A stretch of 64,000 nucleotides of DNA from Labrenzia sp. OB1. Its GTDB lineage: Bacteria > Pseudomonadota > Alphaproteobacteria > Rhizobiales > Stappiaceae. Both the position numbers and the translations under genes were made by a program. The notes under the pieces are model-generated. The model was not told the DNA's origin, made no database searches, and saw nothing but the letters and a program-made list of their open reading frames with translations. The DNA is taken from contig NZ_JSEP01000003.1 in NCBI RefSeq assembly GCF_001624695.1, positions 62,001 to 126,000 on the forward strand, in the 5' to 3' direction. This document shows, in pieces, positions 2,851 through 53,098 of this stretch; within the stretch, counting starts at the first letter, position 1; each line of letters starts with the position of its first letter.

Positions 2851-3534
2851 ATGGCATTTGAGGCGATCCTTTTCGATTGCGACGGCGTTCTGGTCGATTC
2901 CGAAAAGATCTATGTGGAAGTGGAACGCGAGCATCTGGCCAGGATCGGTCTTCATTACGACCTGAATGTCTATATGGACCGCTTCCAGGGCCTCGGTGGC
3001 GCGGACTTCTGGGCCGCTTTGCAAAGCGATCATCAGGCACTCGGCAAGGGTCCCCTGCCGGAGACCTTTGGTCCGGATCTTGACGCAGCCACCTTGGCGC
3101 GGATCGACGCCGAACTCACCGACATAGCCGGCATCAAGGAACTGCTGGAGGCACACAGGGGAGCACGTGCGGTCGCGTCCTCGTCCCGCCTGCAGCGGCT
3201 GCACCACAAGCTGCGCCACACCGGTCTTCACGCCTATTTCGAGCCGCACATCTATTCAGGCGAACAGGTTGAGAACGGCAAACCGGCGCCGGATCTCTTT
3301 CTCTTCGCTGCCGGCAAGCTGGGTGTGCAGCCGGCGTCGACGCTTGTCATCGAAGACAGCGCCAACGGGGTCAAGGCCGGGCTGGCTGCCGGCATGACCG
3401 TCTGGGGGTTTGTCGGCGGCGGTCACAGCCATGACGGCCATGCAGGACAGCTTTCGGCCGCAGGGGCTCACAGGGTTGTCGACAGCCATGACGATCTGGC
3501 GGCCATGCTGTCGGACGCAGGACCGGTGGCTTGA
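2851..3534 (+). CDS. HAD-superfamily phosphatase, beta-phosphoglucomutase/phosphoglycolate phosphatase-like
   Basis: Cytosolic 227-residue HAD hydrolase. Motif I is DCDGVLVDSE (nucleophile and acid/base Asp) near the N-terminus, motif II is ASSS, the motif III lysine is in NGKPAPD, and motif IV is EDSANGV, a typical order with an alpha-helical cap after motif I. The C-terminus carries an unusual His/Gly-rich stretch (GGGHSHDGH). It lies 26 bp after the UgpE-like permease on the same strand and may be co-transcribed. A sugar or glycerol phosphate substrate is plausible from context but not shown. Confidence 0.85.
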   Translation: MAFEAILFDCDGVLVDSEKIYVEVEREHLARIGLHYDLNVYMDRFQGLGGADFWAALQSDHQALGKGPLPETFGPDLDAATLARIDAELTDIAGIKELLEAHRGARAVASSSRLQRLHHKLRHTGLHAYFEPHIYSGEQVENGKPAPDLFLFAAGKLGVQPASTLVIEDSANGVKAGLAAGMTVWGFVGGGHSHDGHAGQLSAAGAHRVVDSHDDLAAMLSDAGPVA

Positions 3535-3568
3535 AGCAGACGGCAGTCTGCCAATCCCCTCCGTCCCT

Positions 3569-3622
3569 GCCTTGAGCCGGGGCCTTCAGAGACGGTGGCA
3601 GGTCCCGGCCCAAGGCCGGGAC
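3569..3622. repeat. GC-rich palindromic intergenic sequence
   Basis: A 9-bp perfect stem, GTCCCGGCC paired across the loop CAA (3602-3622), is preceded by a related motif CTTGAGCCGGGGCC. It lies between the HAD gene and the convergent amt gene. It has the look of a dispersed palindromic repeat or a bidirectional terminator without a T-run. Confidence 0.4.
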
Positions 3623-3679
3623 AGCGCCGCGTGAGTTTGACGCTGCATCAACCGCAAACCGGACCCTGCCTCCGGGCTT

Positions 3680-4900
3680 TTACCTGCCCAGATCGCTTTC
3701 GGGATTTGCGCTGATCTTGTGAATGGAGAGATCGGCACCAAGATGCTCTTCTTCCGCCGTCAGCCGCAGACCCGTTACAACTTTCAGAACACCATAGACG
3801 GCAAAGCCGGCGCCAAGCGCATAAACCGCACCGATGAGTGTGCCCGCGATCTGCGCCAGCGGCGACACGCCACCGAGGCCGCCCAACGCCTCCAGCCCGA
3901 AGAAACCGGCGGCAATTCCGCCCCAGGCACCGCAGATGCCGTGCAGCGGCCAGACACCGAGCACATCATCGACTTTCAGCTTGTTCTGGCAGATCTCGAA
4001 GCCGATCACGAAGATACCGCCTGCGATACCGCCAACAATCAGACAGCCCGCGGGATGCATGATGTCTGACCCGGCGCAGACCGCGACGAGGCCGGCCAGC
4101 GCACCGTTATGGACAAACCCCGGATCGTTCTTCCCGACCACGAGCGCGGCCAGGATGCCGCCTGCCATGGCCATCAGCGAGTTGATCGCGACGAGGCCGG
4201 AAGCTCCCTCCAGCGACCCGGCCGTCATTACGTTGAAGCCGAACCAGCCCACACACAGCATCCAGGATCCCATGGCGAGCCAGGGCAGCGACGACGGCGG
4301 AATGCCGACCGGTCGACCGTTGCGGTCGTAGCGGCCGATACGCGGGCCGAGAAGCAGCACGGCCGCCAACGCGATCCAGCCTCCGACGGCATGGACCACC
4401 ACAGACCCCGCGAAATCGTGGAAGGGCGCGCCGAAGGAGGCTTCGATCCAGGCCTGGATGCCGAAATTGCCGTTCCAGACAACGCCTTCGAAAAGCGGAT
4501 AGACAATGCCGACAAGCACGACGGTCGCAAGACATTGCGGCCAGAATTTCATTCGCTCGGCGATACCGCCTGAGATGATCGCCGGAATGGCGGCTGCGAA
4601 AGTGGTCAGAAAGAAGAACTTGACCAGCGTCAGGCCCTGCAGCTCGAACCCCTCTCCGCCGCCGGACAAGGCCGCGGCATTCACCAGGAAGGTCGTGCCA
4701 TAGGCAACCGCATAGCCGACGAAGAAATAGGTGACGGTCGACAATGCGAAGTCAACGAGAATTTTAACCAGAGCGTTGACTTGGTTCTTTTGCCGCACGG
4801 TCCCCACTTCGAGAAACGCGAACCCTCCATGCATGGCAAAAACGAGGATTGCCCCGACCAGAACAAAAAAGACGTCCCCACCAACCCCTGCTGCACTCAT
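3680..4900 (-). CDS. Ammonium transporter (Amt family), second copy
   Basis: Inner-membrane ammonium channel of 406 residues with about eleven helices. The pore histidines are visible in SVVVHAVGGW and WPLHGICGAWGG, and the extracellular and mid-membrane motifs (FMHGGFAFLEVG-like start, DFAGS) are present. ATG at 4900 is preferred over a TTG at 4921 because it follows a GGGGGTCGG ribosome site and gives the usual short N-terminus. It is separate from the glnK-amtB operon and has its own sigma-54-like site at 4958-4973, so it is probably induced on nitrogen limitation as well. Confidence 0.92.
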   Translation of the reverse strand: MSAAGVGGDVFFVLVGAILVFAMHGGFAFLEVGTVRQKNQVNALVKILVDFALSTVTYFFVGYAVAYGTTFLVNAAALSGGGEGFELQGLTLVKFFFLTTFAAAIPAIISGGIAERMKFWPQCLATVVLVGIVYPLFEGVVWNGNFGIQAWIEASFGAPFHDFAGSVVVHAVGGWIALAAVLLLGPRIGRYDRNGRPVGIPPSSLPWLAMGSWMLCVGWFGFNVMTAGSLEGASGLVAINSLMAMAGGILAALVVGKNDPGFVHNGALAGLVAVCAGSDIMHPAGCLIVGGIAGGIFVIGFEICQNKLKVDDVLGVWPLHGICGAWGGIAAGFFGLEALGGLGGVSPLAQIAGTLIGAVYALGAGFAVYGVLKVVTGLRLTAEEEHLGADLSIHKISANPESDLGR

Positions 4901-5220
4901 TTCCGACCCCCGATTAGGCAAATTGCCGCTTGTTTATGCTTTTGGAGCCACAAGCTATACAAACCGCATGCCAATCGGGCAGAAGACTAGAAAATACGCA
5001 GTAATCAGCCGATCTATTGAGCATGTTCGAAAAGATGCTGCGTTTCGGCATGCCTAATTCTGCTTATTCGATAATCAATTGCCTAATTTTTAGGTCCATC
5101 TAATCACCTTGAGCGAAATCGATTGAATGTCGCTGGATCTTTTCGGAGCTGTCCGAAGATCCAGGGTATCCGTCCAGATGCAGAACGTCCGGGACGCTCC
5201 ATCCGAAGAGAGCGTCAGGC
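4901..5220. other. Intergenic region upstream of the second amt
   Basis: No gene is seen. The region is AT-richer than its neighbours and holds a sigma-54-like promoter (4958-4973) reading towards the second amt. The next supported element is the terminator of the first amtB. Confidence 0.6.
4958..4973 (-). promoter_or_regulatory. Sigma-54-like promoter for second amt
   Basis: On the minus strand the sequence reads TGGCATGCGGTTTGTA. It matches the -24 TGGCA block; the -12 block is TTTGTA, with GT instead of GC, at the correct 10-base spacing after GG. It lies 58 bp from the start codon. Nitrogen regulation of amt genes by NtrC and sigma-54 is established in proteobacteria; its use here is inference. 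Confidence 0.5.
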
Positions 5221-5250
5221 AAAAAAAAGCCCGGAGCGAACTCCGGGCTT
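5221..5250 (-). terminator. Rho-independent terminator of the glnK-amtB operon
   Basis: On the minus strand a 10-bp perfect stem (AAGCCCGGAG with its complement, loop TTCG) is followed by a run of eight T. It lies about 60 bp after the amtB stop codon. Confidence 0.88.
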
Positions 5251-5308
5251 CCAAGTTTGCGGTCTGAGCCAAAAGACCGCCTGGGAGATATTAGGTCAGC
5301 GCATCTTG

Positions 5309-6637
5309 TTAGAGGCGCTGGGACCCCATGCCGAATTCCGGATAGGCTTCCACGCCGACTTCGACCTTGTCGAGCCCGAGCGCTTCTTCTTCTTCCGAGA
5401 CCCGGATACCCATGGTGGCTTTCAGGATGAACCAGACGATTGCCGAAGCGACCAGCGTGAACACGCCGTAGGCAACGATACCGGTGATCTGAACGCCCCA
5501 GGAGGCATCGGCGTTGGAGAGCGGCACGATCAGCGTGCCCCAGATACCTGCGAGCAGGTGAACCGGGATGGCGCCGACCACGTCGTCGATCTTCAGCTTG
5601 TCGAGCATCGGCACGGCGAAGACGACGATCGCACCACCGACAGCACCGATGAACACGGTCTGCCAGACACTCGGAGCCAGAGGCTCGGCGGTGATGGAAA
5701 CAAGACCGGCAAGAGCGCCGTTCAGAGCCATCGTCACGTCAACCTTCTTGTAAAGGATCTGGGTGAGGATGACCGCCGCGACCACACCGGCGGCAGCCGC
5801 CATGTTGGTGTTGGCGAAGATGCGGGAGACGTCGGAGACATCGCTGATGGTGCCCATCGCGAGCTGCGACGCGCCGTTAAAGCCGAACCATCCGAGCCAC
5901 AGGATGAAGGTACCCAAGGTCGCAAGCGGCATGGAGGAACCCGGGAACGGGTGAACCGATCCATCGGCTCCGTATTTGCCTTTACGGGCACCCAGGATGA
6001 TCGCACCGGCAAGAGCGGCCCAGCCACCGACGGAGTGAACCAGCGTAGAACCGGCGAAGTCGGAGAAGCCCATTTCATAGAGCCAGCCCGTGCCCCACTG
6101 CCAGGAACCGGCGATCGGGTAGATGAAACCGGTCAGAACGACCGTGAACACCAGGAACGGCCAAAGCTTGATACGCTCGGCCAGGGTGCCGGAGACGATC
6201 GACGCGGTCGTGGCGCAGAACACCATCTGGAAGAACCAGTCGGACGCCGTGGAATAACCGGTGTCGAGTGCATCGCCACCGACAGCGTCGAAGGCATAAG
6301 GACCGAAGGAGCCCATGAACCCGCCGTCAACACCAGTGTACATGAGGTTGTACCCGGTAATCCAGTACATCAGGCCTGCAATGGAGTAGAGCGTGATGTT
6401 CTTCAGGCACTGCATCGAGACGTTCTTGGAGCGGACCAGACCGGCTTCCAGCATCGCAAAGCCGGCAGCCATCCACATCACGAGGAAACCACCGATCAGG
6501 AACAGCAGCGTGTTCAGGATATAAGCGACCTCAGGGGACACGGCCGGAATGGCAGCAGCGTCCTGGGCGAGGGCCGGCACTGCCGAGAGACTCAGCAAGG
6601 CCAGCGACGTCGCGCCCTTAGCGACAAGTTTTTTCAT
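5309..6637 (-). CDS. amtB: Ammonium transporter AmtB with signal peptide
   Basis: Ammonium channel of 442 residues. It starts with a cleavable-type signal peptide (MKKLVAKG..., cleavage expected after ALAQ), as is usual for proteobacterial AmtB, followed by eleven membrane helices. The twin pore histidines are in STLVHSVGGW and IPVHLLAGIWGT, and the C-terminal GLDKVEVGVEAYPEF tail is the part that contacts GlnK. The start has AAGGAAAC upstream. It is the second gene of the glnK-amtB operon (21 bp gap) and ends before a strong terminator. Confidence 0.95.
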   Translation of the reverse strand: MKKLVAKGATSLALLSLSAVPALAQDAAAIPAVSPEVAYILNTLLFLIGGFLVMWMAAGFAMLEAGLVRSKNVSMQCLKNITLYSIAGLMYWITGYNLMYTGVDGGFMGSFGPYAFDAVGGDALDTGYSTASDWFFQMVFCATTASIVSGTLAERIKLWPFLVFTVVLTGFIYPIAGSWQWGTGWLYEMGFSDFAGSTLVHSVGGWAALAGAIILGARKGKYGADGSVHPFPGSSMPLATLGTFILWLGWFGFNGASQLAMGTISDVSDVSRIFANTNMAAAAGVVAAVILTQILYKKVDVTMALNGALAGLVSITAEPLAPSVWQTVFIGAVGGAIVVFAVPMLDKLKIDDVVGAIPVHLLAGIWGTLIVPLSNADASWGVQITGIVAYGVFTLVASAIVWFILKATMGIRVSEEEEALGLDKVEVGVEAYPEFGMGSQRL

Positions 6638-6658
6638 GATACGTTTCCTTACCTAAAA

Positions 6659-7018
<360 letters not shown>

Positions 7019-7155
7019 TTAGCGCCCCTTCCCATCGAAGAAGCTCCGCCGACCGGTCCGGAAATCGCGCCTGTTTCACATCCCCTCTGGAAGGATCTTC
7101 TCAGGTCTTTGCGTGCGCCACGTTGCGTGGCCCGGACCAGTGTCGGCCATTGCTA

Positions 7156-7171
7156 ATCAAGGACCGTGCCA
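7156..7171 (-). promoter_or_regulatory. Sigma-54 promoter of glnK-amtB
   Basis: The minus strand reads TGGCACGGTCCTTGAT. The -24 element TGGCACG is perfect, and the -12 element TTGAT has GA instead of GC with the correct 10-base spacing after GG. The start site would be near 7145, leaving an untranslated leader of about 150 bases. Confidence 0.65.
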
Positions 7172-7211
7172 ACTTGCGAATTACGGGGATTTTTCCGCAG
7201 AATTCCGCGCG

Positions 7212-7225
7212 TTAACAGCTGTTAA
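7212..7225. promoter_or_regulatory. Perfect palindrome upstream of the glnK promoter
   Basis: TTAACAGCTGTTAA is a perfect 14-bp palindrome, a possible dimeric activator or repressor site. It does not match the NtrC consensus. Confidence 0.35.
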
Positions 7226-7339
7226 GGAATGGAGGAAGGAAAGGGCAGAAACTCAAATGGCCACTTTTAAGGCAGAATTTTTGCCTAAGTAATAATCAGA
7301 CAAAGTGCTTCAGGTTAAAAATTGAGCAGAAGAATCACA

Positions 7340-7373
7340 TTCGGCCTACCGCATAAAAATGCGGCAGACCGAA
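7340..7373 (-). terminator. Hairpin after the DUF924 gene
   Basis: The nested inverted repeat TTCGG ... CCGCAT-AAAA-ATGCGG ... CCGAA lies about 50 bp after the stop codon of the minus-strand DUF924 gene. There is only a short T-rich stretch further on, so termination is probable rather than certain. Confidence 0.45.
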
Positions 7374-7395
7374 CGTGCAAATCATCGAACCAACT

Positions 7396-7412
7396 AGGGT
7401 ACGGACCCGTAA
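7396..7412. repeat. Short intergenic repeat AGGGTACGGACCC
   Basis: AGGGTACGGACCCGTAA lies just past the end of the DUF924 gene. The same 17-mer with one change is at 15119-15135. Confidence 0.45.
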
Positions 7413-7422
7413 AATGGTACTT

Positions 7423-7974
7423 TCAGGCGGAAAACCCGCCGTCTTCCATATAGGCCTGCTCTTTCGACGTTGTGTCCCGCCCGAGTGAACTGTTGCGGTG
7501 GGGAAAGCGGCCGAACCGCCGGATGACATCCATGTGGAGAAGCGCGTAGTAATACAGGTCCTTGTCACCAAGCACCCGAAACAGATCCACGGACCGTTCC
7601 TGATGCGCAATGTCCTCCGAATGTTCGAAAGGCAGATAGAAAAATCCGCGAACAGTTTTCGGAAAGGCACGATCGAACCCGCTCGCAAGCGCTTGCTCGG
7701 CGACGCTCAGGGCCTTCGCATCCGCCTTGAAGGCGTCTGCCGTTCCCCGGAACACGTTTCTGGGCATCTGGTCCAGCAACAGAAGAAGCGCGAGCGATCC
7801 GTCCGCAGTCTCCATCCACGGATCCAGACCGCCTGAAAGCGCTCCTTCGATTGCCGGCAGGAACCCCTCCCGGCACTCACGGTCGAACTCTTTGTCGCTT
7901 GCGAACCATTTTCCGGGGCCGGCCTGCCACCAGAAATCGAGCACATCCAGCGGCGTAATCTGCTGATCGGTCAT
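7423..7974 (-). CDS. DUF924 family protein
   Basis: 183-residue cytosolic protein. The VLDFWWQAGPGKWF start, the LLLLDQMPRNVFRGTADAF block, YLPFEHSED and a closing GRFPHRNSSLGR motif are the conserved features of DUF924, an all-helical TPR-like family of unknown function common in proteobacteria. ATG at 7974 (MTDQQ) is preferred to the longer start at 8013, which adds a non-conserved basic leader. It appears to be a single-gene unit. Confidence 0.88.
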   Translation of the reverse strand: MTDQQITPLDVLDFWWQAGPGKWFASDKEFDRECREGFLPAIEGALSGGLDPWMETADGSLALLLLLDQMPRNVFRGTADAFKADAKALSVAEQALASGFDRAFPKTVRGFFYLPFEHSEDIAHQERSVDLFRVLGDKDLYYYALLHMDVIRRFGRFPHRNSSLGRDTTSKEQAYMEDGGFSA

Positions 7975-8046
7975 GAGAAGTCTTTCGCGGTTGCGTTGAA
8001 ACCAGCCGCCCAAAGCGGCAATCCATCGGTCGGTTATAGCAAACCG

Positions 8047-8856
8047 CTATTGGTCACAGGCAAGTTTCTGCCAGCTTTCGACGTGCTCGGCATAGTGTTT
8101 TTCAAAAAAACCGTTTTCCCTCAAGTCGGCCATTTCCTCCCGGAAGGCTTCGACCAGTTCGGGGTCGCTGCCCTTGCTGAAGACGGCCCACAGCGGCTGC
8201 GCCAGCGCCTCTATGAAGACCACCGGTTTCAGAAGCGACCCGTCATAGCCCTCCCGGCAGACGGAGGCTTCGGCCAGAAACCCCGTCAGCGGAAGAAGAT
8301 CGAGCCGGTCGAGATAGAGCATCTCGATACCCTGGCGGTAATCGGTTATCGGCACCAGGTTACGGCCTTCGTCAAACCCCAACTGTTTCAGATAACTATG
8401 CAGATTGCCGCCATTCTGAACACCGATCCGCAAATTGAGCGACATGAGGTCTTCAATCCGGTCAACTGCGATCTCCGGCCGGGTATCGAGCTGATAGAAA
8501 TACTGACCATAGGGAGACACTTCGCCAAGCCACTCGAACCAGCCTTCACGCTCTTGCGTCCGCGAGAGCGAAAAGAACAGGACGTTCGGTTCCTGGCGCG
8601 CCGTCAGAATTGCCCTTTTCCAGGGCAGAAAGTCGAATGACCCGACCGAGACCGGCAGCCGCTCGCTGACCCGGTCAATCACGGCAAGCATGAAATCGGC
8701 GACGTAGCCGTCGGGCTCTCCGTCATTATCCCATTGCAGCGGCGCGAAATACTGCGTCACGATGCGGATCTGTCCGGACGCGGCCTTCACCAGCTGGCTG
8801 TGCCACAAGCAAGCTGAAATCAAAACGCCCACAAAGATATAAAATGCGGATTTCAA
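8047..8856 (-). CDS. Periplasmic solute-binding protein, amino-acid type (SBP family 3)
   Basis: 269 residues with a signal peptide (hydrophobic core FYIFVGVLISACLW, cleavage expected after VKAA). The mature part follows the bilobal SBP_bac_3 pattern (IRIVTQYFAPLQW, GYVADFMLAVI, LRIGVQNGGN, DRLDLLPLTG). No permease or ATPase is adjacent, so it may be an orphan receptor or binding protein; such orphans are common in Rhizobiales. The ligand cannot be told. Confidence 0.75.
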   Translation of the reverse strand: MKSAFYIFVGVLISACLWHSQLVKAASGQIRIVTQYFAPLQWDNDGEPDGYVADFMLAVIDRVSERLPVSVGSFDFLPWKRAILTARQEPNVLFFSLSRTQEREGWFEWLGEVSPYGQYFYQLDTRPEIAVDRIEDLMSLNLRIGVQNGGNLHSYLKQLGFDEGRNLVPITDYRQGIEMLYLDRLDLLPLTGFLAEASVCREGYDGSLLKPVVFIEALAQPLWAVFSKGSDPELVEAFREEMADLRENGFFEKHYAEHVESWQKLACDQ

Positions 8857-9102
8857 GTGCTTAACACCAATGCACGTTGATCATGATCCTCATGACCAAT
8901 CCTCCTGGCGGAAACAGCAAAACCTGCGAGATTTTTAGAGACCTTTGCCGCAAGTCGCACATCTTGACGTTTCCCGGAACATCCCGATCATATATTCAGT
9001 CTAAATTCGAACTGCTAATCGCATGTAAAGACATGTAGATTCTTACAATACAAAAACAATCCGCGCTATTTTTAAATAGCGTAGCGTCAGGAACTGCAAC
9101 CA

Positions 9103-9330
9103 TTGAGTGAAATCACACTGGACTTGAAAGGCTTGAAATGCCCGCTGCCGGTTCTCAAGACGCGCAAGGCCTTGACCCGACTTGCCACGGGTGACCGAAT
9201 GACGGTGCTGACCACGGACCCGATGGCTGAAATCGACATCCCGCATCTTTGCAGCCAGGACGGTCATACCTTGCTGTCAGCGGAAAAAACCGCAACTGGA
9301 CACAGTTTCCTGCTCTCCAAGGGCGATTAA
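9103..9330 (+). CDS. TusA/SirA-like sulfurtransferase
   Basis: 75-residue small sulfur carrier. The family signature CPxP is present (LKCPLPVLKTRKAL), with the cysteine expected to carry persulfide sulfur for tRNA thiolation, molybdenum cofactor or other sulfur transfer. The start is TTG, with AGGAAC about 9 bases upstream; no in-frame ATG precedes the conserved DLKGLKCP segment. It is a single gene with no sulfur-metabolism neighbours, so the recipient is unknown. Confidence 0.88.
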   Translation: MSEITLDLKGLKCPLPVLKTRKALTRLATGDRMTVLTTDPMAEIDIPHLCSQDGHTLLSAEKTATGHSFLLSKGD

Positions 9331-9410
9331 AGCATCCGCATTCGGTCAACCTGGACGAGTTCCTCAGCAATTTCGAATTCGATTTGAGGTGTATCTATCC
9401 GGCCGCCTCG

Positions 9411-9707
9411 TCAGGAGCGGTTCGCGATCCTGTCAATCTCGGCCGCCAGTTCCAGATCCAGCGCGCTCAACCCGCCGACATCATGGGTCGCCAGCGTGAT
9501 ATCGACACTGCGGTAGACATTGAACCACTCCGGATGGTGATCCATCTTTTCCGCCACCAGCGCCACTTCCGTCATGAACCCGAAGGCATGCCGGAAATTC
9601 TTGAACCTGAAGGATTTGGAAATGGCTTCTCGCTCTTCGCAAAGGTGCCAGTCCGCCAGTGCCTTCAGTCCCGCCGCACGGTCTTCCGGTTTCAGCCGTT
9701 CTGCCAT
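9411..9707 (-). CDS. phhB: 4a-hydroxytetrahydrobiopterin dehydratase
   Basis: 98-residue pterin-4a-carbinolamine dehydratase. The active-site pattern [20 protein letters not shown] is the family signature, with the His pair and the downstream His of the catalytic triad. It recycles the tetrahydrobiopterin cofactor used by phenylalanine hydroxylase. The hydroxylase gene is not nearby. Confidence 0.93.
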
Positions 9708-9872
9708 TTGATCCTCCTTCAGGTCGGGGCCACCCGATCATGAGCCCATACCCTAGCCTAACCCGATGACAAGGCGAAGGCGATGAGGCATACCGTGATA
9801 ACAAAGCTTCGCGTTGCCTTGCCGGAGGCACAGGTTTGCCTCGTGATCGTGGCCGCTGCATCGGAGACTGCC

Positions 9873-10337
9873 GTGCCTCACTCTGTCCTGTTCGTATGCC
9901 TTGGCAACATCTGCCGGTCCCCGCTCGCCGAAGGCATCTTCCGAACCCTCGTCGACGAAAGCGGACAGGGCGACCTGTTCACAATCGACTCTGCCGGAAC
10001 CGGCGCCTGGCACATAGGCAATCCGCCGGACCCGCGCTCGATCGATATCGCCGCGAAACACGGGATCGACCTGTCCGCGCAGCGCGCCCGGCAGGTCGTC
10101 TCCGCGGACTTCACACGTTTCGATACGATCCTTGCCATGGATGCCGCCAACCTCGCGGCGCTCGGCTCGGAAGAAAGCTCCCGCACGGCCCACATTCGTC
10201 TGTTACTCAACGATCCGCCCAAGGATGTTCCCGATCCCTATTTCGGCGGGCCGGACGGATTCGAACATGTCTACCGCCTCGTGCGCTCAGGCTGCGAGAA
10301 ATTTCTCGATACGCTAGATCGGCCCGAACACGTCTGA
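9873..10337 (+). CDS. Low-molecular-weight protein tyrosine phosphatase
   Basis: 154-residue phosphatase. The P-loop VCLGNICRSPLAEG is at the N-terminus with the nucleophilic Cys and Arg, and the general-acid loop DPYFGG is near the C-terminus. I choose GTG at 9873, which has GGAG 7 bases upstream and puts the P-loop at the family position; an upstream ATG (9783) would add 30 non-conserved residues. Such enzymes often act on tyrosine kinases of polysaccharide export, but no such genes are beside it. Confidence 0.9.
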   Translation: MPHSVLFVCLGNICRSPLAEGIFRTLVDESGQGDLFTIDSAGTGAWHIGNPPDPRSIDIAAKHGIDLSAQRARQVVSADFTRFDTILAMDAANLAALGSEESSRTAHIRLLLNDPPKDVPDPYFGGPDGFEHVYRLVRSGCEKFLDTLDRPEHV

Positions 10338-26488: not shown

Positions 26489-27901
26489 TTAAACGTTCTC
26501 GCATATCGGCCTGCCCAGAAATTCCTGCAGAAAATTTATGAACCTCGGATCCGTTCCATGGGCCACGTTAACGCGCATGGCTGCCCGCCCGCGGCTTTGG
26601 CGGTTCGGATAAAAGACGGATCCGGGGGCAATGAAAATGCTTTGCTTGCTTGCCTGCGCGCACAGCTCCTGCTCGTCGACGTCCTCGGGAAACTCGACCC
26701 ACAGATAAAACCCGGGGATGGAGCTTTCCATGAGCGAAAGCCCGAGCCTTTCCATCTCTTCGAAAGTCGCCTTGCAGGCCTCCTCGACCCGTCCTCTCAA
26801 TCGTCTGAGGTGACGCAGGTAATGTCCGGCCTGAATGAGATTGAAGACGAACCGTTCGACATGTTCGGAGGAATTGACCAGCGTGACCATCTTGATATCC
26901 GCCAGCCGGCGGACAATCTCGGGTGCCCCGGCGACATAGCCGCACCGAAGACTTGCCGAAAGCGTTTTGGAAAAGGAGCCGAGATAAAGCACACGGTTCA
27001 ACTGGTCGAGCGCGGCAAGCCGTGGCAGCGTGGAGGGCAGGATATCGGCCAGCGCATCGTTTTCCACCAGAAGAAAGCCCCAGCGTTCAGCGAGCTGCAT
27101 CAGCCCGAAGGACCGGGACGGTGACAGGGATCCGCCCGTCGGATTGTGTCCATGCGACTGGGTGACGAACATCTTCGGACGGTGCAGCGCGAGCTTTGCC
27201 GTCAGGTCTTCCAGGTCCGTCCCGTCCCGGTCCCGGCGAATGCCGACGATCTGGACCTTGGCGAATGTCAGTTTGGAGAACAGCGGGTAGTATCCGGGTT
27301 CGTCGACGAAGACTGTATCGCCCGGCTCGGTCAGATGCCGGATGATCAGGTCCAGCCCGTGATTGACCCCATGGGTCAGCAGCAGCCCGTCCGGCTGAAC
27401 GGGAATGGAACGTTCGAGCAGTTGAATCCTCAGGCGCTCCCGCAGCGGACCATAGCCCCAGCAACTGCCGTAACCGAACTGAATGGATTCCGGATAGGGG
27501 GACTTGGCATTGGCGAAATGGCGCCTGAGTTCCGAGCCTTCCATCCACAACGGTGGCGGCCGCCCGTCTCCCGGCCGTACCTCGTAGTGTTTTTCCAGCT
27601 GTTCGCGCAGCAGCGATACGCCATCAACCGCGGCAGCGACATGCGGCGCCGGCGTCAAGGGCGGAGAGAGCCTCACCTGGGCCATGTAGTAACCCGACCC
27701 GGCACGGGCTTCGAGAAGCCCACGGGCCACAAGCCGGTCATAGGCTTCGGCCATTGTGTTCTTCGAAACACCGTTATCGCGCGCAGCCTGACGGATGGAG
27801 GGCAACCGCTCAAAGGTCTTGTAGGCGCCGGCCTCAACCATTAGAGCAACCTTTTCAACGATCTGGTCGACACGGGAAAGACGTCGGCTGCCATCGCTCA
27901 T
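26489..27901 (-). CDS. MocR-family regulator (GntR HTH plus PLP aminotransferase-like domain)
   Basis: 470 residues. The N-terminal GntR winged helix reads LPSIRQAARDNGVSKNTMAEAYDRLVARGLL (quoted in parts), followed by a linker and a class I aminotransferase fold. The PLP lysine is in GSFSKTLSASLR, and the HNPTG motif is present. MocR proteins sense a metabolite through PLP. It is divergent from the TRAP/HMG-CoA reductase operon, with repeated TGATTGTCCC sites between them. Confidence 0.92.
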   Translation of the reverse strand: MSDGSRRLSRVDQIVEKVALMVEAGAYKTFERLPSIRQAARDNGVSKNTMAEAYDRLVARGLLEARAGSGYYMAQVRLSPPLTPAPHVAAAVDGVSLLREQLEKHYEVRPGDGRPPPLWMEGSELRRHFANAKSPYPESIQFGYGSCWGYGPLRERLRIQLLERSIPVQPDGLLLTHGVNHGLDLIIRHLTEPGDTVFVDEPGYYPLFSKLTFAKVQIVGIRRDRDGTDLEDLTAKLALHRPKMFVTQSHGHNPTGGSLSPSRSFGLMQLAERWGFLLVENDALADILPSTLPRLAALDQLNRVLYLGSFSKTLSASLRCGYVAGAPEIVRRLADIKMVTLVNSSEHVERFVFNLIQAGHYLRHLRRLRGRVEEACKATFEEMERLGLSLMESSIPGFYLWVEFPEDVDEQELCAQASKQSIFIAPGSVFYPNRQSRGRAAMRVNVAHGTDPRFINFLQEFLGRPICENV

Positions 27902-27903
27902 CG

Positions 27904-27971
27904 TGATTGTCCCTGTTTTCTGACTGGGACAGTGACCTCACTATTGCCGCTATCCGTCCCTTGATTGTCCC
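27904..27971. promoter_or_regulatory. Putative MocR operators (TGATTGTCCC repeats)
   Basis: Two identical direct copies of TGATTGTCCC are at 27904-27913 and 27962-27971, 58 bp apart. A half site in inverse orientation, TGGGACA, is at 27925-27931, forming TGTCCC...GGGACA with the first copy. They lie between the divergent MocR and TRAP genes, where self- and target-regulation by MocR proteins is usual. Confidence 0.55.
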
Positions 27972-28034
27972 AAAATTTTTTATGACAGTCACGACCATTA
28001 AACCAGAAAGCGAGAGCTTCCTAGGGAGGAAAAC

Positions 28035-29075
28035 ATGACCAGATTGAATAGACGCGGACTTATTGCGGGCGCTGCCTTGGGTGCGGCTGCACTGGCCGCA
28101 TTGGCAGGACAGGGAACAGCACAGGCTCAGGACGCCGTCGAATGGCGCATGCAGGCCCTTTGGGACGCAGGCACGACCCCGTACGAATATGAAAAGAAAT
28201 TCGTTGAGCGCGTCAGCGAGCTGACCGACGGCAAATTCTCCATCAAGCTGTTCTCGGCCGGACAGCTCGTCCCGGCGAACCAGGCATTTGACGCCGTTCG
28301 CGCCGGCGCCTTCGAATTGATGAAAACCTATGACGGTTACGAAGCAGGCAAGATCCCGGCCTTCGCCTTCACATCGTCCATCCCCTTCGGCTTTCCGCAA
28401 TCCGACCAGTACGAAGCCTGGTTCTATGAGCTGGGTGGGCTGGAACTTGCGCGCGAAGCCTACGACAGGGCGGGCCTGTTCTATATCGCCCCCACCGTCT
28501 ACGGCGAAGAGCCGATCCATTCCACTGTTAGGATGGAAACCATTGCCGACATGGCTGACAAGAAAGGCCGGTTCGTCGGCCTTGCCTCGGCTGTGATGGG
28601 AGACATGGATGTCGCGGTCACGCCGATGGCGACGGGCGAGATCTATACGGCGCTCGAAAAAGGCCTCATCGACTTTGCCGACCGGGGCGACCTGACGGCC
28701 AACTACGAGGCAGGTCTGGCGGAAGTCGCCAAGTTCATCATCCTTCCGGGCGTACACCAGCCGACAACGGCCACGAGCTATGTCGCCAACAAGGCGGCCT
28801 ATGAAGCCCTGCCCGACTCCTACAAGGCCGCTCTTGCGGTGGCTGCGCGTGAAATCTCCGGCTCCCTGCGCCAGCACATCATGACGCAGAACGCCGAGGT
28901 TCTCGAAAAGTACAAGGAAAAGGGCGTTGAGGTGATCTACCTGGACGAAGCCGACGTTGCCAGCCATCGCGCCAGTGCCGTCGAATCCTGGAAAAAAGCC
29001 ACCAAGGATGACGATCTGGCCAACCGTGTCCTTGAAAGTCAGGTTAACTTCATGACTGCTCTGGGTCTGCTTTAA
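28035..29075 (+). CDS. TRAP transporter solute-binding subunit DctP, likely mevalonate-type ligand
   Basis: 346-residue periplasmic binding protein. It begins with a Tat-like leader (NRRGLIAGAALGAAA, cleaved after AQAQ). The mature part has the TRAP pattern WRMQALWDAGTTPYEYEKKFVERV, SAGQLVPANQAFDAVRAGAFEL and a catalytic-region Arg before the hinge. It leads an operon with DctQ, DctM and a degradative HMG-CoA reductase, so mevalonate is the best guess for the ligand (inference). Confidence 0.88.
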   Translation: MTRLNRRGLIAGAALGAAALAALAGQGTAQAQDAVEWRMQALWDAGTTPYEYEKKFVERVSELTDGKFSIKLFSAGQLVPANQAFDAVRAGAFELMKTYDGYEAGKIPAFAFTSSIPFGFPQSDQYEAWFYELGGLELAREAYDRAGLFYIAPTVYGEEPIHSTVRMETIADMADKKGRFVGLASAVMGDMDVAVTPMATGEIYTALEKGLIDFADRGDLTANYEAGLAEVAKFIILPGVHQPTTATSYVANKAAYEALPDSYKAALAVAAREISGSLRQHIMTQNAEVLEKYKEKGVEVIYLDEADVASHRASAVESWKKATKDDDLANRVLESQVNFMTALGLL

Positions 29076-29155
29076 GACCTTCCTCCCGCAGAGCGGCGAT
29101 CGGGGCTTCGGCACCGGTCGCCGTTCGGCAGCTTTTATCCTGGCTCCACAGCTTC

Positions 29156-29662
29156 ATGAAACAGATCTGTTCACTCATCACCGGTATCAACCGGGTGCTT
29201 TTCCTCGCAGCAGCCGCGCTGATTTTCGCCGTGGTGCCCATGCTGCTTTTCGAGGTCGTCGCCCGCTACGCGTTCGATTCCCCCACGGTCTGGGCGATGG
29301 AGGCCAGCACGCTTGTCTTCGGTCCCCACTTCCTGTTTGCGGGCCCCTACCTGCTGCATCTCAAGGGCCATGTCGCCGTCGACATTTTCAGCGAGAAGCT
29401 GCACGGCAGGGCGAAAATCGCCTCGGAGGTGTTTTCCTATCTTGTCGTTGCCATCTTCGCAGGCGTCTTCGCCGTGGTGAGCTGGCCGCTGGCCATGAAT
29501 TCCTTCGGCATGGCCGAAACGAGCTTTTCCGCCTGGAACCCGCCGATCTGGTGGCTGAAATTCGTCGTGCCGCTGTCTTTCGCCATGCTTTTCACCCAGG
29601 CGGTCGCAGAAATCCTCCAGGCAGTGTTTTTCTCCGAAAATGAGATCGGAGCGGACGCATGA
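29156..29662 (+). CDS. TRAP transporter small permease DctQ
   Basis: 168 residues with four membrane helices. The motifs FEVVARYAFDSPTVWAMEAS and GPYLLHLKGHVAVDIF are typical of DctQ. It overlaps dctM by 4 bp (ATGA) and follows the binding protein by 80 bp. Confidence 0.9.
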   Translation: MKQICSLITGINRVLFLAAAALIFAVVPMLLFEVVARYAFDSPTVWAMEASTLVFGPHFLFAGPYLLHLKGHVAVDIFSEKLHGRAKIASEVFSYLVVAIFAGVFAVVSWPLAMNSFGMAETSFSAWNPPIWWLKFVVPLSFAMLFTQAVAEILQAVFFSENEIGADA

Positions 29663-30972
29663 GCTCCGAATTCGTCCTTGCCATCATGTTCGCAAGCCTC
29701 ATCGGCCTGCTTCTGACCGGTGTGCCGCTGGCCTTCACGCTCGGCGCTCTGGCCCTGCTTTTCACTTTGCTCTTGTGGGGCTCCGCCGCCCTGTCGGTGA
29801 CGATCCTCAATCTCTATTCCACCATGACGTCGGAAGCGCTGCTTGCCATTCCGCTCTATGTCATGATGGCCAGCACGCTGCAGCGCTCCGGCGTGATTGA
29901 AAGCCTTTACCGCGCAATGGAACTGTGGTCGCGCCGCCTTCCGGGCGGACTGGCGGTCGGCACCATTGTCATCTGCACCATCATCGCCGCCATGACCGGC
30001 ATCGTGGGCGCCGCCGTTGCGGCGATGGGCATGCTTGCGCTGCCTTCCATGCTGAAGCGCAAATACAGTCCCGAACTGGCGATCGGCACGATCTGCGCCG
30101 GCGGAACCCTGGGCATTCTCATTCCCCCGTCGGTCATCACCATCGTTTATGCGGTCACAGCACAGGCTTCCATCGGCCAGATGTTCATCGCCGGCGTCGT
30201 TCCCGGCCTGCTGCTGGCTTCGCTCTATATCGGCTACATCGTCCTGCGCGCCACGTTCAATCCTTCCGTCGCGCCGCGTCCGGACGCCGACGAGCCCACC
30301 ACTTGGGACGAACGGATTGCCTCGCTGAAATCCCTGGTTCTGCCGCTGCTGATCATCGTCGGCGTTCTCGGCACCATCTACATGGGCATCGCCACGCCGA
30401 CGGAAGCCGCCGCTGTCGGCGTGTTTCTAGCCTTCATCTCTGCCCTGATCGAGCGGCGTCTCGGCTGGGAACTTGTCTACGGCGTCGCGCTCGACGTGGT
30501 GAAGGTCACGGCGATGATCCTCTGGATCACTATCGGTGCAAGGGCATTCGTGGCGATTTTCACCGGAACCGGTGGCGCCGACTTCCTGCTGGACTTCATT
30601 CAGAACCTGGACGCCAACCGCTGGGTCGTGCTGGCGGTAATGCTGGGAATTCTCTTCCTGCTCGGCATGTTCCTGGACGAAATCGGCATCATTCTTCTGT
30701 GCGTGCCGGTCTTTCTTCCGGTGATCGACTTCCTCGGTTTCGATCGGCTCTGGTTCGGCATCCTCTTCCTGGTCTCCGCCCAGATGGCCTATATCTCGCC
30801 ACCCTTTGGCTACACGCTTTTCTACATGAAAGGCGTTCTCCCGGCCGGGATCGGCATGGGGACCGTCTACCGCGCCATCATTCCCTTCATTCTTCTCCAG
30901 GCCCTCGGTATCTTCATCTGCGCTCTCTTCCCGGAGCTGGTGCTGTGGCTTCCCAATTCAATGATCAACTAA
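29659..30972 (+). CDS. TRAP transporter large permease DctM
   Basis: 437 residues with about twelve helices. LLTGVPLAFTLGALAL near the start, GAAVAAMGMLALPSMLKRKYSPELAIG and CAGGTLGILIPPSVITIVYAV are DctM hallmarks. It forms the sodium-driven membrane unit with DctQ. Confidence 0.93.
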   Translation: MSSEFVLAIMFASLIGLLLTGVPLAFTLGALALLFTLLLWGSAALSVTILNLYSTMTSEALLAIPLYVMMASTLQRSGVIESLYRAMELWSRRLPGGLAVGTIVICTIIAAMTGIVGAAVAAMGMLALPSMLKRKYSPELAIGTICAGGTLGILIPPSVITIVYAVTAQASIGQMFIAGVVPGLLLASLYIGYIVLRATFNPSVAPRPDADEPTTWDERIASLKSLVLPLLIIVGVLGTIYMGIATPTEAAAVGVFLAFISALIERRLGWELVYGVALDVVKVTAMILWITIGARAFVAIFTGTGGADFLLDFIQNLDANRWVVLAVMLGILFLLGMFLDEIGIILLCVPVFLPVIDFLGFDRLWFGILFLVSAQMAYISPPFGYTLFYMKGVLPAGIGMGTVYRAIIPFILLQALGIFICALFPELVLWLPNSMIN

Positions 30973-30987
30973 CATGCAGGACATCCG

Positions 30988-32265
30988 ATGAGCGACGACA
31001 CATCGTCCCGAATTGAAGGCTTTCACAAAATGGAGCCGGATGCCCGGCTCCAGGCCGTGGCGCGCCAGGCAAAGCTCGGCAACGAAGCCGTCGCCACTCT
31101 AGCGGATGCCGCCTCCGGCCAGATAGAGCTGGCCGACCGCCTTGTCGAAAATGCCATCACCAGCATGGCCATTCCGGTCGGGATCGCCACCAACGTCACC
31201 GTCGACGGACGGGACGTGCTGGTGCCGATGGCTACGGAGGAATCCTCCGTCATTGCCGCTGTCTGCAACTCCGCCAAGCGCTGCCGGTCCACCGGCGGTT
31301 TCAGGACCTCCACAAGCGGCCCGGTCATGGCTGCCCAGATTCAGCTTCTGGGCGCCAGCGATCCGGAAAACGTCCGCCTGAAGGTTCTGGAACGCATCGG
31401 CGAAATCAAGGCGATCTGCGACGAGACCGATCCGCTCCTGCTGAAATTCGGCGGCGGGTTCCAGGATCTCGACATTCGCGTGATCGACACGGCCGAAGGC
31501 CCGATGACCGTGGTGCACATCATTGTCGACACCCGCGACGCCATGGGCGCCAACGCCGTCAACAGCATGGCGGAGGCCCTGGCCCCGAAGCTGGAGGAAT
31601 GGACCGGAGCCCGCAGCCTGCTGCGCATCCTGACCAATCTGGCCGACCGCCGTCTCGCCCGCGTGCGCGCTGTCTGGCCGGCCGAGGAGATCGGCGGCGA
31701 GCAGGTGCGTGATGACATGCTGTCGGCCTATCATTTCGCCGATGCCGACCCCTATCGGGCCGCCACCCACAACAAGGGCATCATGAACGGCATCAGCGCG
31801 GTGGTGCTGGCGACGGGCAACGACACCCGCGCCATCGAGGCCGGCGCCCACGCCTACGCGGCAAAGGACGGCTGGTACCGCTCCATGACCCGTTGGGAAA
31901 AGGACGGCGACGGCAATCTCGTCGGCATTCTTGAAATGCCGCTGGCGGTCGGGCTGATCGGCGGCGCCACGAAGATCCACCCGACGGCGCAGGCCAACCT
32001 GAAGATCCTTGGCGTCAAGACCGCCGACGAACTGGCACGCATCATCGTTTCCGTCGGCCTTGCCCAGAACTTCGGAGCCATGCGCGCGCTGGCGACCACC
32101 GGCATCCAGAAAGGCCACATGGCCCTGCATGCCCAGAACGTCGCCCTGATGGTCGGGGCCGTCGGCACGGAAATCGACAAGGTGGCGGAGGAACTTAAAA
32201 CGCTCGGCAAGGTACGTCAGGACCTCGCTGAAGGCATCCTGGCGCGTCTGCGCGGCGAAGCCTGA
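30988..32265 (+). CDS. mvaA: Degradative hydroxymethylglutaryl-CoA reductase (class II)
   Basis: 425 residues. Catalytic residues of the class II enzyme are in place: Glu84 in ATEESS, Lys263 in THNKGIMNG, Asp279 in GND and His381 in GHMALH. ENAITSMAIPVG is also conserved. Class II enzymes as in Pseudomonas mevalonii oxidise mevalonate to HMG-CoA with NAD. No mevalonate biosynthesis or HMG-CoA lyase gene is near, so the next step must be encoded elsewhere. It starts 15 bp after DctM with AGGA upstream. Confidence 0.92.
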   Translation: MSDDTSSRIEGFHKMEPDARLQAVARQAKLGNEAVATLADAASGQIELADRLVENAITSMAIPVGIATNVTVDGRDVLVPMATEESSVIAAVCNSAKRCRSTGGFRTSTSGPVMAAQIQLLGASDPENVRLKVLERIGEIKAICDETDPLLLKFGGGFQDLDIRVIDTAEGPMTVVHIIVDTRDAMGANAVNSMAEALAPKLEEWTGARSLLRILTNLADRRLARVRAVWPAEEIGGEQVRDDMLSAYHFADADPYRAATHNKGIMNGISAVVLATGNDTRAIEAGAHAYAAKDGWYRSMTRWEKDGDGNLVGILEMPLAVGLIGGATKIHPTAQANLKILGVKTADELARIIVSVGLAQNFGAMRALATTGIQKGHMALHAQNVALMVGAVGTEIDKVAEELKTLGKVRQDLAEGILARLRGEA

Positions 32266-32417
32266 CGAAGAGGACAAACTCTTCCGTAAAATTGCCCAGC
32301 CTGCGACCCTAAGCGGGCATTTCAGAACTGTGCCCGACCCGGCAGCAGCCGATTTTCTCTGCTTTGGATGAGATTGCCTCTTTTCCAATCGATTGCTTGT
32401 TGTATCCTTTTTGCAGG

Positions 32418-32936
32418 ATGACAACGGACCTGATCGATCTGCGCGCGGCCCGAACCGCGGATTGCGACGCGCTAGCCGGGATTCACAGCGAAGCCTGGCT
32501 CGGCGCCTACAGGGGCGTGCTGCACGGCGTCGACCTGCAGAAGATGGTCTCCCGGCGGGGCACTAGCTGGTGGCGGGGTGCCCTTGCGCGCGGTGTGGAC
32601 ATCAAGATCCTCAGCATTGCCGACGTCCCGGCCGGCTACGCGACTTACGGCCCTTGCCGCCTGCGCGATACCGGCATGGAGGGTGAGATATACGAACTCT
32701 ATCTGAAGCCTGAATATCAGGGTCTGGGCTTCGGCCGAACCCTGTTCGGGAATGTCAGGGAAACGCTGTCTTCAAAGAACCTCTCGGGCCTTGCGGTTCA
32801 GGTGCTCAGCGACAACCGGCCCGCGCGTGCCTTCTACAATGCACTCGGCGGAAGACTGGCAGCGAAATCATGGTACCGCCTGGGCGGCAAACGCATGGAA
32901 CTGTCCATCTACGCCTGGCCAGAGAAGAAAACCTGA
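32418..32936 (+). CDS. GNAT family N-acetyltransferase
   Basis: 172 residues with the GNAT acetyl-CoA site ELYLKPEYQGLGFGRTLF and a following VQVLSDNRPARAFYNALGG segment. ATG at 32418 begins MTTDLIDLRAARTAD, the usual first strand; a TTG at 32364 is an alternative. Substrate unknown. Confidence 0.85.
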   Translation: MTTDLIDLRAARTADCDALAGIHSEAWLGAYRGVLHGVDLQKMVSRRGTSWWRGALARGVDIKILSIADVPAGYATYGPCRLRDTGMEGEIYELYLKPEYQGLGFGRTLFGNVRETLSSKNLSGLAVQVLSDNRPARAFYNALGGRLAAKSWYRLGGKRMELSIYAWPEKKT

Positions 32937-33573: not shown

Positions 33574-33704
33574 CTGAACTCCTCCGGAGGAATTGACTAG
33601 CCGGAGAGAGCCAAGATCATCCTTTGGGTGCAATGCAAAATAAAGGACTTGAACTTCTCCTGCGGGATTGCGATAGACCCTGCAACGAAAAACAGGAGTG
33701 TGCA

Positions 33705-34244
33705 ATGCGTATCGACGCCGTGCCGATTGGCAAGAACCCGCCGGAAGACGTCAACGTCATCATCGAGGTGTCCGTTGGTGGCGAACCGATCAAATACGAA
33801 ATGGATAAGGAAGCCGGGGCGATGTATGTCGACCGCTTTCTCTATACCCCGATGCGCTATCCGGGCAATTACGGCTTCGTACCGCACACCCTTTGCGGCG
33901 ATGGCGACCCGATCGACGTGATCGTCGTCAACCAGCGGCCTATCGTGCCGGGTGCGATCATGAACTGCCGCCCGATCGGTGTGCTTCTGATGGAAGACGA
34001 ATCCGGCAAGGACGAGAAGATCATCGCCGTACCGACCCACAAGCTGAGCAAGCGCTACGACAACATCAACGACATTTCCGACCTGCCGGACATCACCATG
34101 GCCCAGGTCAGGCACTTCTTCGAGCACTACAAAGATCTCGAGCCCGGCAAATGGGTGAAGATCACCGGTGTCGAGGGAACCGAAGCGGCCAAGCGGATGA
34201 TCAGCGAATCGATCGAACGCGCCCGCATGGAAGGCGCCGAATAA
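33705..34244 (+). CDS. ppa: Inorganic pyrophosphatase (family I)
   Basis: 179-residue soluble enzyme that hydrolyses pyrophosphate. The active-site block [10 protein letters not shown], with metal-binding Asp residues, and [12 protein letters not shown] are diagnostic. ATG at 33705 has AGGAG 7-8 bases upstream. Monocistronic and divergent from the secreted protein. Confidence 0.96.
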
Positions 34245-51976: not shown

Positions 51977-53098
51977 ATGTATGTTGCCGTCAAGGGTGGA
52001 GAAAAGGCCATCCGCAACGCCCACAAGCTTACGGCGAAGCGCCGCAGGGGCGATACCTCCGTTCCCGCGCTGACGCTGGAACAGATCGCGCAGCAGCTGG
52101 CGCATTCGGTCGCACGGGTGATGGGCGAAGGCTCGCTCTACGACGAAACGCTGGCCGCGCTGGCGATCAAGCAGGCGCGCGGCGACCTTATCGAGGCCGC
52201 CTTCTTGATGCGCGCCTACCGCACCACCCTGCCGCGCTTCGGCTACAGCACGCCGGTCGACACCGGCACCATGCTGGTCGAGCGCCGGATCTCCGCCACC
52301 TACAAGGATCTGCCCGGTGGTCAGGTTCTGGGCCCGACTTTCGACTACAGCCACCGTCTGCTGGACTTTGCCCTTGCGGCGGAAGATGACGGCGCGGAGC
52401 AGCCTGTCGAGATGACGGATAACGACGATCAGGCCATGCCGCGCGTCACCGACTTGCTGGGCGACGAAGGTCTGATGGAACCGGATCCCGTTTCCGACGG
52501 CGGCACGCCTGTCGGCGACCTGACCCGCGAGCCGCTGTCCTTTCCTGCCGACCGGGACCTGAGGCTCCAGAACCTTGCCCGTGGCGACGAGGGCTTCCTG
52601 CTGGCGCTCGCCTATTCCACCCAGCGCGGTTATGGCCGCACGCATCCCTTTGCCGGTGAGATCCGTTATGGCGAAGTCGAGGTTGAATTCTTCGCCGAGG
52701 AACTCGGGTTCGCCGTCACACTTGGCGCCATCAAAGTCACCGAGTGCCAAATGGTCAACCAGTTCGCTGGCTCCGCCCAGGCCGCGCCGACTTTCACACG
52801 TGGATACGGGCTTGTCTTCGGTCAGGCGGAGCGCAAGGCAATGTCGATGTCAATGGTCGACCGGTCGATGCGCTGGCAGGAGTTGGGCGAGGAGCCGGTC
52901 GCCCCGGCACAGGACGTCGAATTTGTTCTGTCCCACTCCGACAACATCCAGGCGACCGGCTTCGTCGAACACCTGAAACTGCCCCACTACGTTGATTTTC
53001 AGGCCGAACTCGACCTCGTGCACCGCATGCGTACCGAATGGTTCGAAAAGCGCGAGCAGCAGGAACAGGGCGGAGCCGCCCAGGAGGCCGCACAATGA
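51977..53098 (+). CDS. phnI: C-P lyase core subunit PhnI
   Basis: 373 residues. MYVAVKGGEKAIRNAHKL, VARVMGEGSLYDETLAALAIKQARGDL and the late HVDYFQAEL-like region fit PhnI, which attaches the phosphonate to the ribose of ATP with release of adenine. Overlaps phnJ by 4 bp. Confidence 0.95.
   Translation: MYVAVKGGEKAIRNAHKLTAKRRRGDTSVPALTLEQIAQQLAHSVARVMGEGSLYDETLAALAIKQARGDLIEAAFLMRAYRTTLPRFGYSTPVDTGTMLVERRISATYKDLPGGQVLGPTFDYSHRLLDFALAAEDDGAEQPVEMTDNDDQAMPRVTDLLGDEGLMEPDPVSDGGTPVGDLTREPLSFPADRDLRLQNLARGDEGFLLALAYSTQRGYGRTHPFAGEIRYGEVEVEFFAEELGFAVTLGAIKVTECQMVNQFAGSAQAAPTFTRGYGLVFGQAERKAMSMSMVDRSMRWQELGEEPVAPAQDVEFVLSHSDNIQATGFVEHLKLPHYVDFQAELDLVHRMRTEWFEKREQQEQGGAAQEAAQ

Follow-up and report, generated by a model that had tools for sequence, protein, structure and literature searches.

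Mevalonate is a building block for sterols and other isoprenoids in other organisms. In Pseudomonas mevalonii, mevalonate is reportedly catabolized by the products of mvaA, a 3-hydroxy-3-methylglutaryl-CoA (HMG-CoA) reductase (HMGR), and mvaB, an HMG-CoA lyase. The operon described here lies in a 64,000-nucleotide stretch of Labrenzia sp. OB1 (contig NZ_JSEP01000003.1, positions 62,001 to 126,000), hereafter the window. Positions 27904-32265 of the window hold a promoter region and an operon that pairs a tripartite ATP-independent periplasmic (TRAP) transporter with a class II HMGR, and the gene for a MocR regulator lies just outside that range. With a probability of about 0.83, the genes form an inducible operon that lets the bacterium feed on mevalonate from outside the cell. 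The pathway is known from P. mevalonii, and the TRAP-equipped operon faced by a MocR gene is a new variant of it. The regulator is the unsettled and interesting part of an otherwise well-supported mevalonate-use operon.

Among the literature matches listed, there is no natural bacterial mevalonate importer, including any mevalonate TRAP system, and neither the importer kind (TRAP) nor the regulator kind (MocR) is tied to mevalonate. A yeast transporter has reportedly been evolved in the laboratory to carry the compound (PMC12405511). The operon gives a set of candidate genes for mevalonate import in bacteria and a way to predict which of them can live on this compound, and isoprenoid engineering gains a candidate sensor and importer for it.

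The operon and its reductase

The operon is composed of four tightly packed genes on the plus strand, separated by 80, -4, and 15 bases. Family profile matches identify all three TRAP subunits: the solute-binding protein DctP (28035-29075; PF03480, 146.5 bits), the predicted mevalonate receptor; the small permease DctQ (29156-29662; PF04290, 84.7 bits); and the large permease DctM (29659-30972; TIGR00786, 322.3 bits, cut-off 268.45). The last gene (30988-32265) encodes a degradative class II HMGR (mevalonate:NAD oxidoreductase, CoA-acylating). DctP would capture mevalonate in the periplasm, and DctQM would carry it inward, driven by an ion gradient. HMGR would then oxidize it (mevalonate + CoA + 2 NAD+ to HMG-CoA), and an HMG-CoA lyase encoded on contig 46 would split the product into acetyl-CoA and acetoacetate.

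HMGR scores 422.8 bits against the degradative equivalog TIGR00532 of NCBIfam (cut-off 259.95) and merely 57 bits against the NADPH-type equivalog (cut-off 441.8). Among solved structures, its best match is 1QAX, from P. mevalonii (453.8 bits). By alignment and motif positions, Glu85, Lys263, Asp279, and His377 correspond to P. mevalonii Glu83, Lys267, Asp283, and His381, which we take to be the catalytic residues. Asp148, of the NAD type, aligns to P. mevalonii Asp146, presumably the residue for NAD specificity. The first-pass annotation had proposed a TRAP transporter paired with a class II HMGR with all catalytic residues, and the open frames, family matches, and residue alignment bear this out. 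The enzyme probably runs in the oxidative direction, from mevalonate to HMG-CoA. The available text of a paper on the Ruegeria pomeroyi HMGR (PMC12292504) describes that enzyme as mainly NADH-using, and the word operon is absent from that text.

The host genome (6.0 Mb, 99.99% complete) was covered by genome-wide profile and protein searches. It contains a single HMGR match and no match to the N-terminal domain of HMG-CoA synthase or to mevalonate kinase. DXR, of the methylerythritol phosphate route, is present (443.7 bits). The absence of isoprenoid pathway genes noted earlier for the window therefore extends to the mevalonate route genome-wide, and the mevalonate biosynthesis pathway that would have contradicted a degradative role has no match. 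One HMG-CoA lyase over the cut-off (453 bits, cut-off 246) was found on contig 46, as had been predicted for some place outside the window. Its neighbors are an enoyl-CoA hydratase and acyl-CoA synthetase-like, biotin carboxylase-like, and carboxyltransferase-like proteins, the last three below specific-family cut-offs; the layout resembles that of leucine or isovalerate degradation. Since both HMGR and this lyase are encoded, the enzymes for conversion of mevalonate through HMG-CoA to acetyl-CoA and acetoacetate are present.

The system shares with P. mevalonii a degradative class II HMGR, an HMG-CoA lyase in the genome, and the lack of a mevalonate-biosynthesis match. It differs in that the lyase is outside the operon, TRAP genes are added, and the HMGR is divergent, as its 453.8 bits indicate. 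It is hardly credible that HMGR instead makes mevalonate, for isoprenoids or export. In favor of that role are the reversibility of the reaction, the biosynthetic use of class II HMGRs in other bacteria and archaea, and the archaeal relatives in a scan of contigs for HMGR. Such a role was rejected on the genome-wide searches, and TRAP systems are importers. Moreover, of 25 relatives from the bacterial family with an intact operon, 13 have HMG-CoA lyase inside it, which, with the TIGR00532 score and the lyase of the host, upholds the degradative role first suggested.

The TRAP receptor and its distribution

The AlphaFold2 model of DctP (pLDDT 79.7) most closely resembles the lactate receptor TTHA0766 among solved folds (Z 35.5, rmsd 2.3 over 312 residues, 36% identity). 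Other receptors, among them the 2-oxoacid receptor TakP (Z 30.9), come after it. This modeled likeness is a guide to the family of DctP and not to its ligand. TakP contacts its ligand through Tyr100, Gln156, Arg177, Glu214, Trp215, and Glu240, according to the available part of PMC1839085. The corresponding residues of the window DctP are Tyr102, Glu159, Arg179, Asp216, Arg217, and Gln242, and none of the six varies among the 35 HMGR-linked DctPs, two of which (L002 and L130) come from one genome.

The TTHA0766 pocket has Asn158, Arg178, Asp216, Phe217, and Gln247. DctP shares the fold of both receptors and keeps the carboxylate residues Arg179 and Tyr102, and it has Asp216 and Gln242 in common with TTHA0766. 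It differs at Glu159 and Arg217, which are Asn and Phe in TTHA0766 and Gln and Trp in TakP, and Gly101, likewise invariant in the clade, stands in place of TakP Tyr99. Three family paralogues have Asn and Tyr at the Glu159 and Arg217 positions, with the other pocket residues as in the window DctP. The residue pattern fits one shared carboxylate ligand other than lactate, and leaves the identity of that ligand to other evidence.

Within the family, 87 genomes were sampled, 45 of them from the genus of the window, and HMGR was counted at E below 1e-100. This HMGR type is found in 28 of the 87 genomes and in 12 of the 45, with the gene interrupted in one Breoghania genome (G003); five marginal matches (E 1e-4 to 1e-3) were left out. 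The query was the degradative protein, and the NADPH-class HMGR of genome G031 escaped it; the 59 genomes without this type may therefore hold other HMGR classes. An orthologous DctP (at least 61% identity) is encoded in 27 of the 87 genomes, all within the 28 that are HMGR-positive. The next best DctP among the matches listed is 34% identical, and by best E-value no orthologue occurs in the 59 remaining genomes. The co-occurrence has a Fisher p of 1e-21, a value that takes no account of how the genomes are related. Better guides are the patchy distribution and the G003 operon, which is decaying.

These data bear on the possibility that the TRAP substrate is a different small hydroxy or keto acid of the lactate kind, mevalonolactone, or free 3-hydroxy-3-methylglutarate, with the HMGR pairing reflecting a neighboring step. 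In favor of this, lactate and 2-oxoacids are the ligands of the nearest solved receptors, and residues are shared with them, including the Tyr and Arg with which TakP contacts the carboxylate. However, every genome with an orthologue (27 of 27) also has this HMGR type, Glu159 and Arg217 set them apart from the lactate receptor, TakP, and the paralogues, and free 3-hydroxy-3-methylglutarate would call for a CoA ligase rather than HMGR. Another substrate is unlikely, and mevalonate is the ligand that we infer for DctP.

Two ARRANGEMENTS are found in the family. In the first type, MocR faces DctP-DctQ-DctM-HMGR (18 relatives); in the second, MocR faces HMGR-DctP-DctQ-DctM (7 relatives, L140-L146). 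A MocR match is missing at L130, which otherwise has the first-type order. The second-type HMGRs are just 50-52% identical to that of the window. The lyase gene, where inside the operon, is downstream, in 8 of 18 first-type and 5 of 7 second-type relatives. A lyase match over the cut-off is found elsewhere in the genome in all 13 other cases (the 10 first-type relatives with no operon lyase, plus G048, G072, and G025), although three of these 13 matches contain a stop.

The wider contig scan confirmed at least 590 HMGR places, many of them archaeal and some on short contigs, of which the best 80 were kept. This TRAP system is upstream of HMGR at 9 of the 80 loci (L002, L003, L005-L007, L010, L012, L016, and L023), with MocR at seven of the nine. 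A MocR relative is present at 21 of the 80 loci, and an HMG-CoA lyase is within the fetched stretch at 15; in Breoghania (L002) it is within the operon. A TctA permease adjoins HMGR at 11 loci, 10 of them with MocR (four by Pfam, the rest by tblastn). A Peripla_BP_6 receptor of the ABC type is paired with HMGR at L009, L011, and L013, and a TctC receptor at L015, where a 3-oxoacid CoA-transferase subunit lies further on. In the HMGR tree, the TctA-, ABC-, and TctC-linked lineages are interleaved with TRAP-linked ones. From these sequences, the importer seems to have been exchanged around a constant HMGR-MocR core.

The same exchange could suggest a chance neighborhood, in which an unrelated TRAP system sits beside a catabolic HMGR fed by another transporter: TctA, ABC, or TctC genes adjoin HMGR elsewhere, so this TRAP system is not required for the pathway, and G048 keeps HMGR with no such TRAP system. 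This is very improbable, as the same TRAP system recurs with two divergent HMGR lineages and in two gene orders, no orthologue of this DctP occurs in the 59 genomes of the family that lack this HMGR type, and the operon genes decay together in G003. At that locus (L139, G003:C36:30000-43000; genus Breoghania, g2), the MocR, DctP, and HMG-CoA lyase matches are fragmented, alongside a short DctM and an interrupted HMGR.

Several points weigh against mevalonate use as the function of the operon. The operon in the window has no lyase of its own adjoining HMGR, as a P. mevalonii-type system would. The nearest solved relative of DctP binds lactate. G048 (L137) has this HMGR type with a different TRAP receptor nearby, a distant one with Glu aligned at 159 and Phe at 217.

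The MocR regulator and its putative operator

The regulator gene (26489-27901, minus strand) is divergent from the operon. Its product is of the MocR/GabR type, with a GntR winged helix-turn-helix (wHTH) domain, an aminotransferase-like domain (Aminotran_1_2), and a lysine of the pyridoxal 5'-phosphate (PLP) type assigned by motif. It scores below the cut-off of every MocR family profile listed. Identity with PdxR was rejected on this basis (NF052282, 225.9 bits, cut-off 320).

Lys312, Arg319, Asn253, and Arg443 are invariant in 46 of 46 HMGR-linked MocRs; their equivalence to GabR residues is by motif and not by alignment to GabR. In GabR, Tyr281 stacks on the PLP ring, according to the available text of PMC6917764. 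None of the 46 linked MocRs has Tyr at the three candidate positions (283-285), and all five MocR/aminotransferase-like paralogues of the host genome have a Tyr nearby. Where the paralogues have a conserved Asp, which by sequence is probably GabR Asp279, the linked MocRs have Asn (25), Asp (18), or Ser (3), followed by an invariant Asp, in a register that is uncertain.

The linked MocRs thus share with GabR, EnuR, and PdxR the wHTH and aminotransferase-like domains, the invariant Lys312, Arg319, and Arg443, and a putative repeat-type operator. They differ in the missing PLP-ring Tyr and in a predicted substrate that has no amine. Neither mevalonate nor its known breakdown products carry an amine. 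In the part of PMC8739950 that was available, the switch from internal to external aldimine requires a primary amine in the inducer, and in vitamin-B6 MocR regulators, PLP is the sole effector. Mevalonate has no primary amine of the kind with which GabR and EnuR react, which argues against it as the inducer. Either the regulator senses without an aldimine, or the effector is something else. Earlier, MocR control and sensing of mevalonate or a derived metabolite had been proposed together; the link of the regulator to the operon gains from a recurring inverted repeat, and the sensing of mevalonate fits poorly with the amine-dependent chemistry of GabR and EnuR.

A tentative proposal, at somewhat less than even odds, is that MocR is a PLP-pocket regulator that answers an amine-free compound (mevalonate or HMG-CoA) without an external aldimine. 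It would head a widespread mevalonate regulon with interchangeable TRAP, TctA, and ABC importers and, by neighborhood alone, TctC importers. This poses a clean chemical question, that of a PLP-type regulator sensing a molecule with no amine. Nothing relevant to a MocR-mevalonate link was found among the literature matches listed, and the term HMG is absent from the available main text of a MocR regulon survey (PMC5320631).

The divergent gap between MocR and DctP spans 133 bases (27902-28034). It contains a putative operator, the inverted repeat TGTCCC-N12-GGGACA (27908-27931, no strand). Further half-sites follow at 27955-27989 (no strand): CGTCCC at 27955, TGTCCC at 27966, and an inverted GACAGT at 27984; similar ones can be made out by eye at further loci. 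No promoter was detected in a scan for sigma-70 sites. MocR may bind the TGTCCC/GGGACA sites between the divergent genes and would thereby control both.

A degenerate form of the repeat is found in 16 of 20 promoter regions, namely those of 7 of 10 TRAP, 6 of 7 TctA, and 3 of 3 ABC loci; L015, with its TctC receptor, lies outside these 20. In 300 shuffles, the mean number of matching regions was 0.09 and the maximum was 2 of 20. Of the 18 repeat matches in 377 kb of those loci, 15 lie in 6.3 kb of promoter regions. Relatives fetched later include 17 intact first-type operons that had no part in drawing the pattern, and all 17 carry the repeat in their promoter gap, with half-sites kept and spacers varied. 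The strict repeat occurs at two places in the host genome, the operon gap and a site on contig 90. The latter was rejected as a second operator, as it lies inside a 679-aa open reading frame, and is taken as chance.

Other results count against the repeat as the operator of a mevalonate regulon. The pattern was drawn from the same 20 regions in which it was first tested, which are not independent, and it is missing at four of them (L005, L010, L023, and L062). The 17 first-type regions come from close relatives. Just 2 of 7 second-type relatives match, with AACTGTACC half-sites seen by eye in L140, L141, L142, and L146. The window has two further degenerate matches outside the promoter, at 52060 and 56619, and a search of the host genome found no strict repeat near the HMG-CoA lyase.

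Related loci and neighboring genes

DXR is encoded in 26 of the 27 HMGR-positive relatives, and HMG-CoA synthase matches occur in 9 of the 27. Three of these loci were inspected (G074, G003, and G031). The matches of G074 (L187) and G003 (L186) were rejected as mevalonate biosynthesis, as they are adjoined by a cytochrome P450 gene and appear polyketide-like. At L187 (G074:C1:4400500-4412500), the HMG-CoA synthase-like gene is at about 8713-9969, approximately 15 kb from the HMGR operon. It neighbors a P450 identified by Pfam and acyl carrier protein- and ketosynthase-like frames seen by eye. A similar pair is found at L186, with the P450 seen by eye. Matches were also observed in G073, G078, G080, and G084.

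G031, from the same genus as the window, has an apparently complete mevalonate-making operon (L189, G031:C1:2659500-2672500, positions 3173-9723). Type 2 isopentenyl diphosphate isomerase, HMG-CoA synthase, and diphosphomevalonate decarboxylase are all over the cut-off. The HMGR belongs to the NADPH class with 266 bits, short of the class cut-off, and two mevalonate-kinase-like kinases are also below cut-off. No DXR match was found in this genome, where DXR-like alternatives were not searched for. G031 has a degradative operon and a separate biosynthetic operon with its own HMGR, so its two HMGRs have separate contexts. It seems able to both make and degrade mevalonate, and the handling of this conflict could naturally be studied there.

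Three loci of the contig scan (L028, L036, and L038) form a separate bacterial HMGR clade with no MocR match. CaiB-like CoA-transferase frames are seen by eye near L036 and L038, and perhaps represent another route for HMG-CoA or mevalonate.

Downstream of the operon, the window encodes a GNAT acetyltransferase (32415-32936), followed by an inorganic pyrophosphatase (33624-34244). Neither gene was matched at the TRAP-HMGR loci of other genera. The GNAT gene follows the operon in 8 of 11 relatives of the same genus with HMGR.

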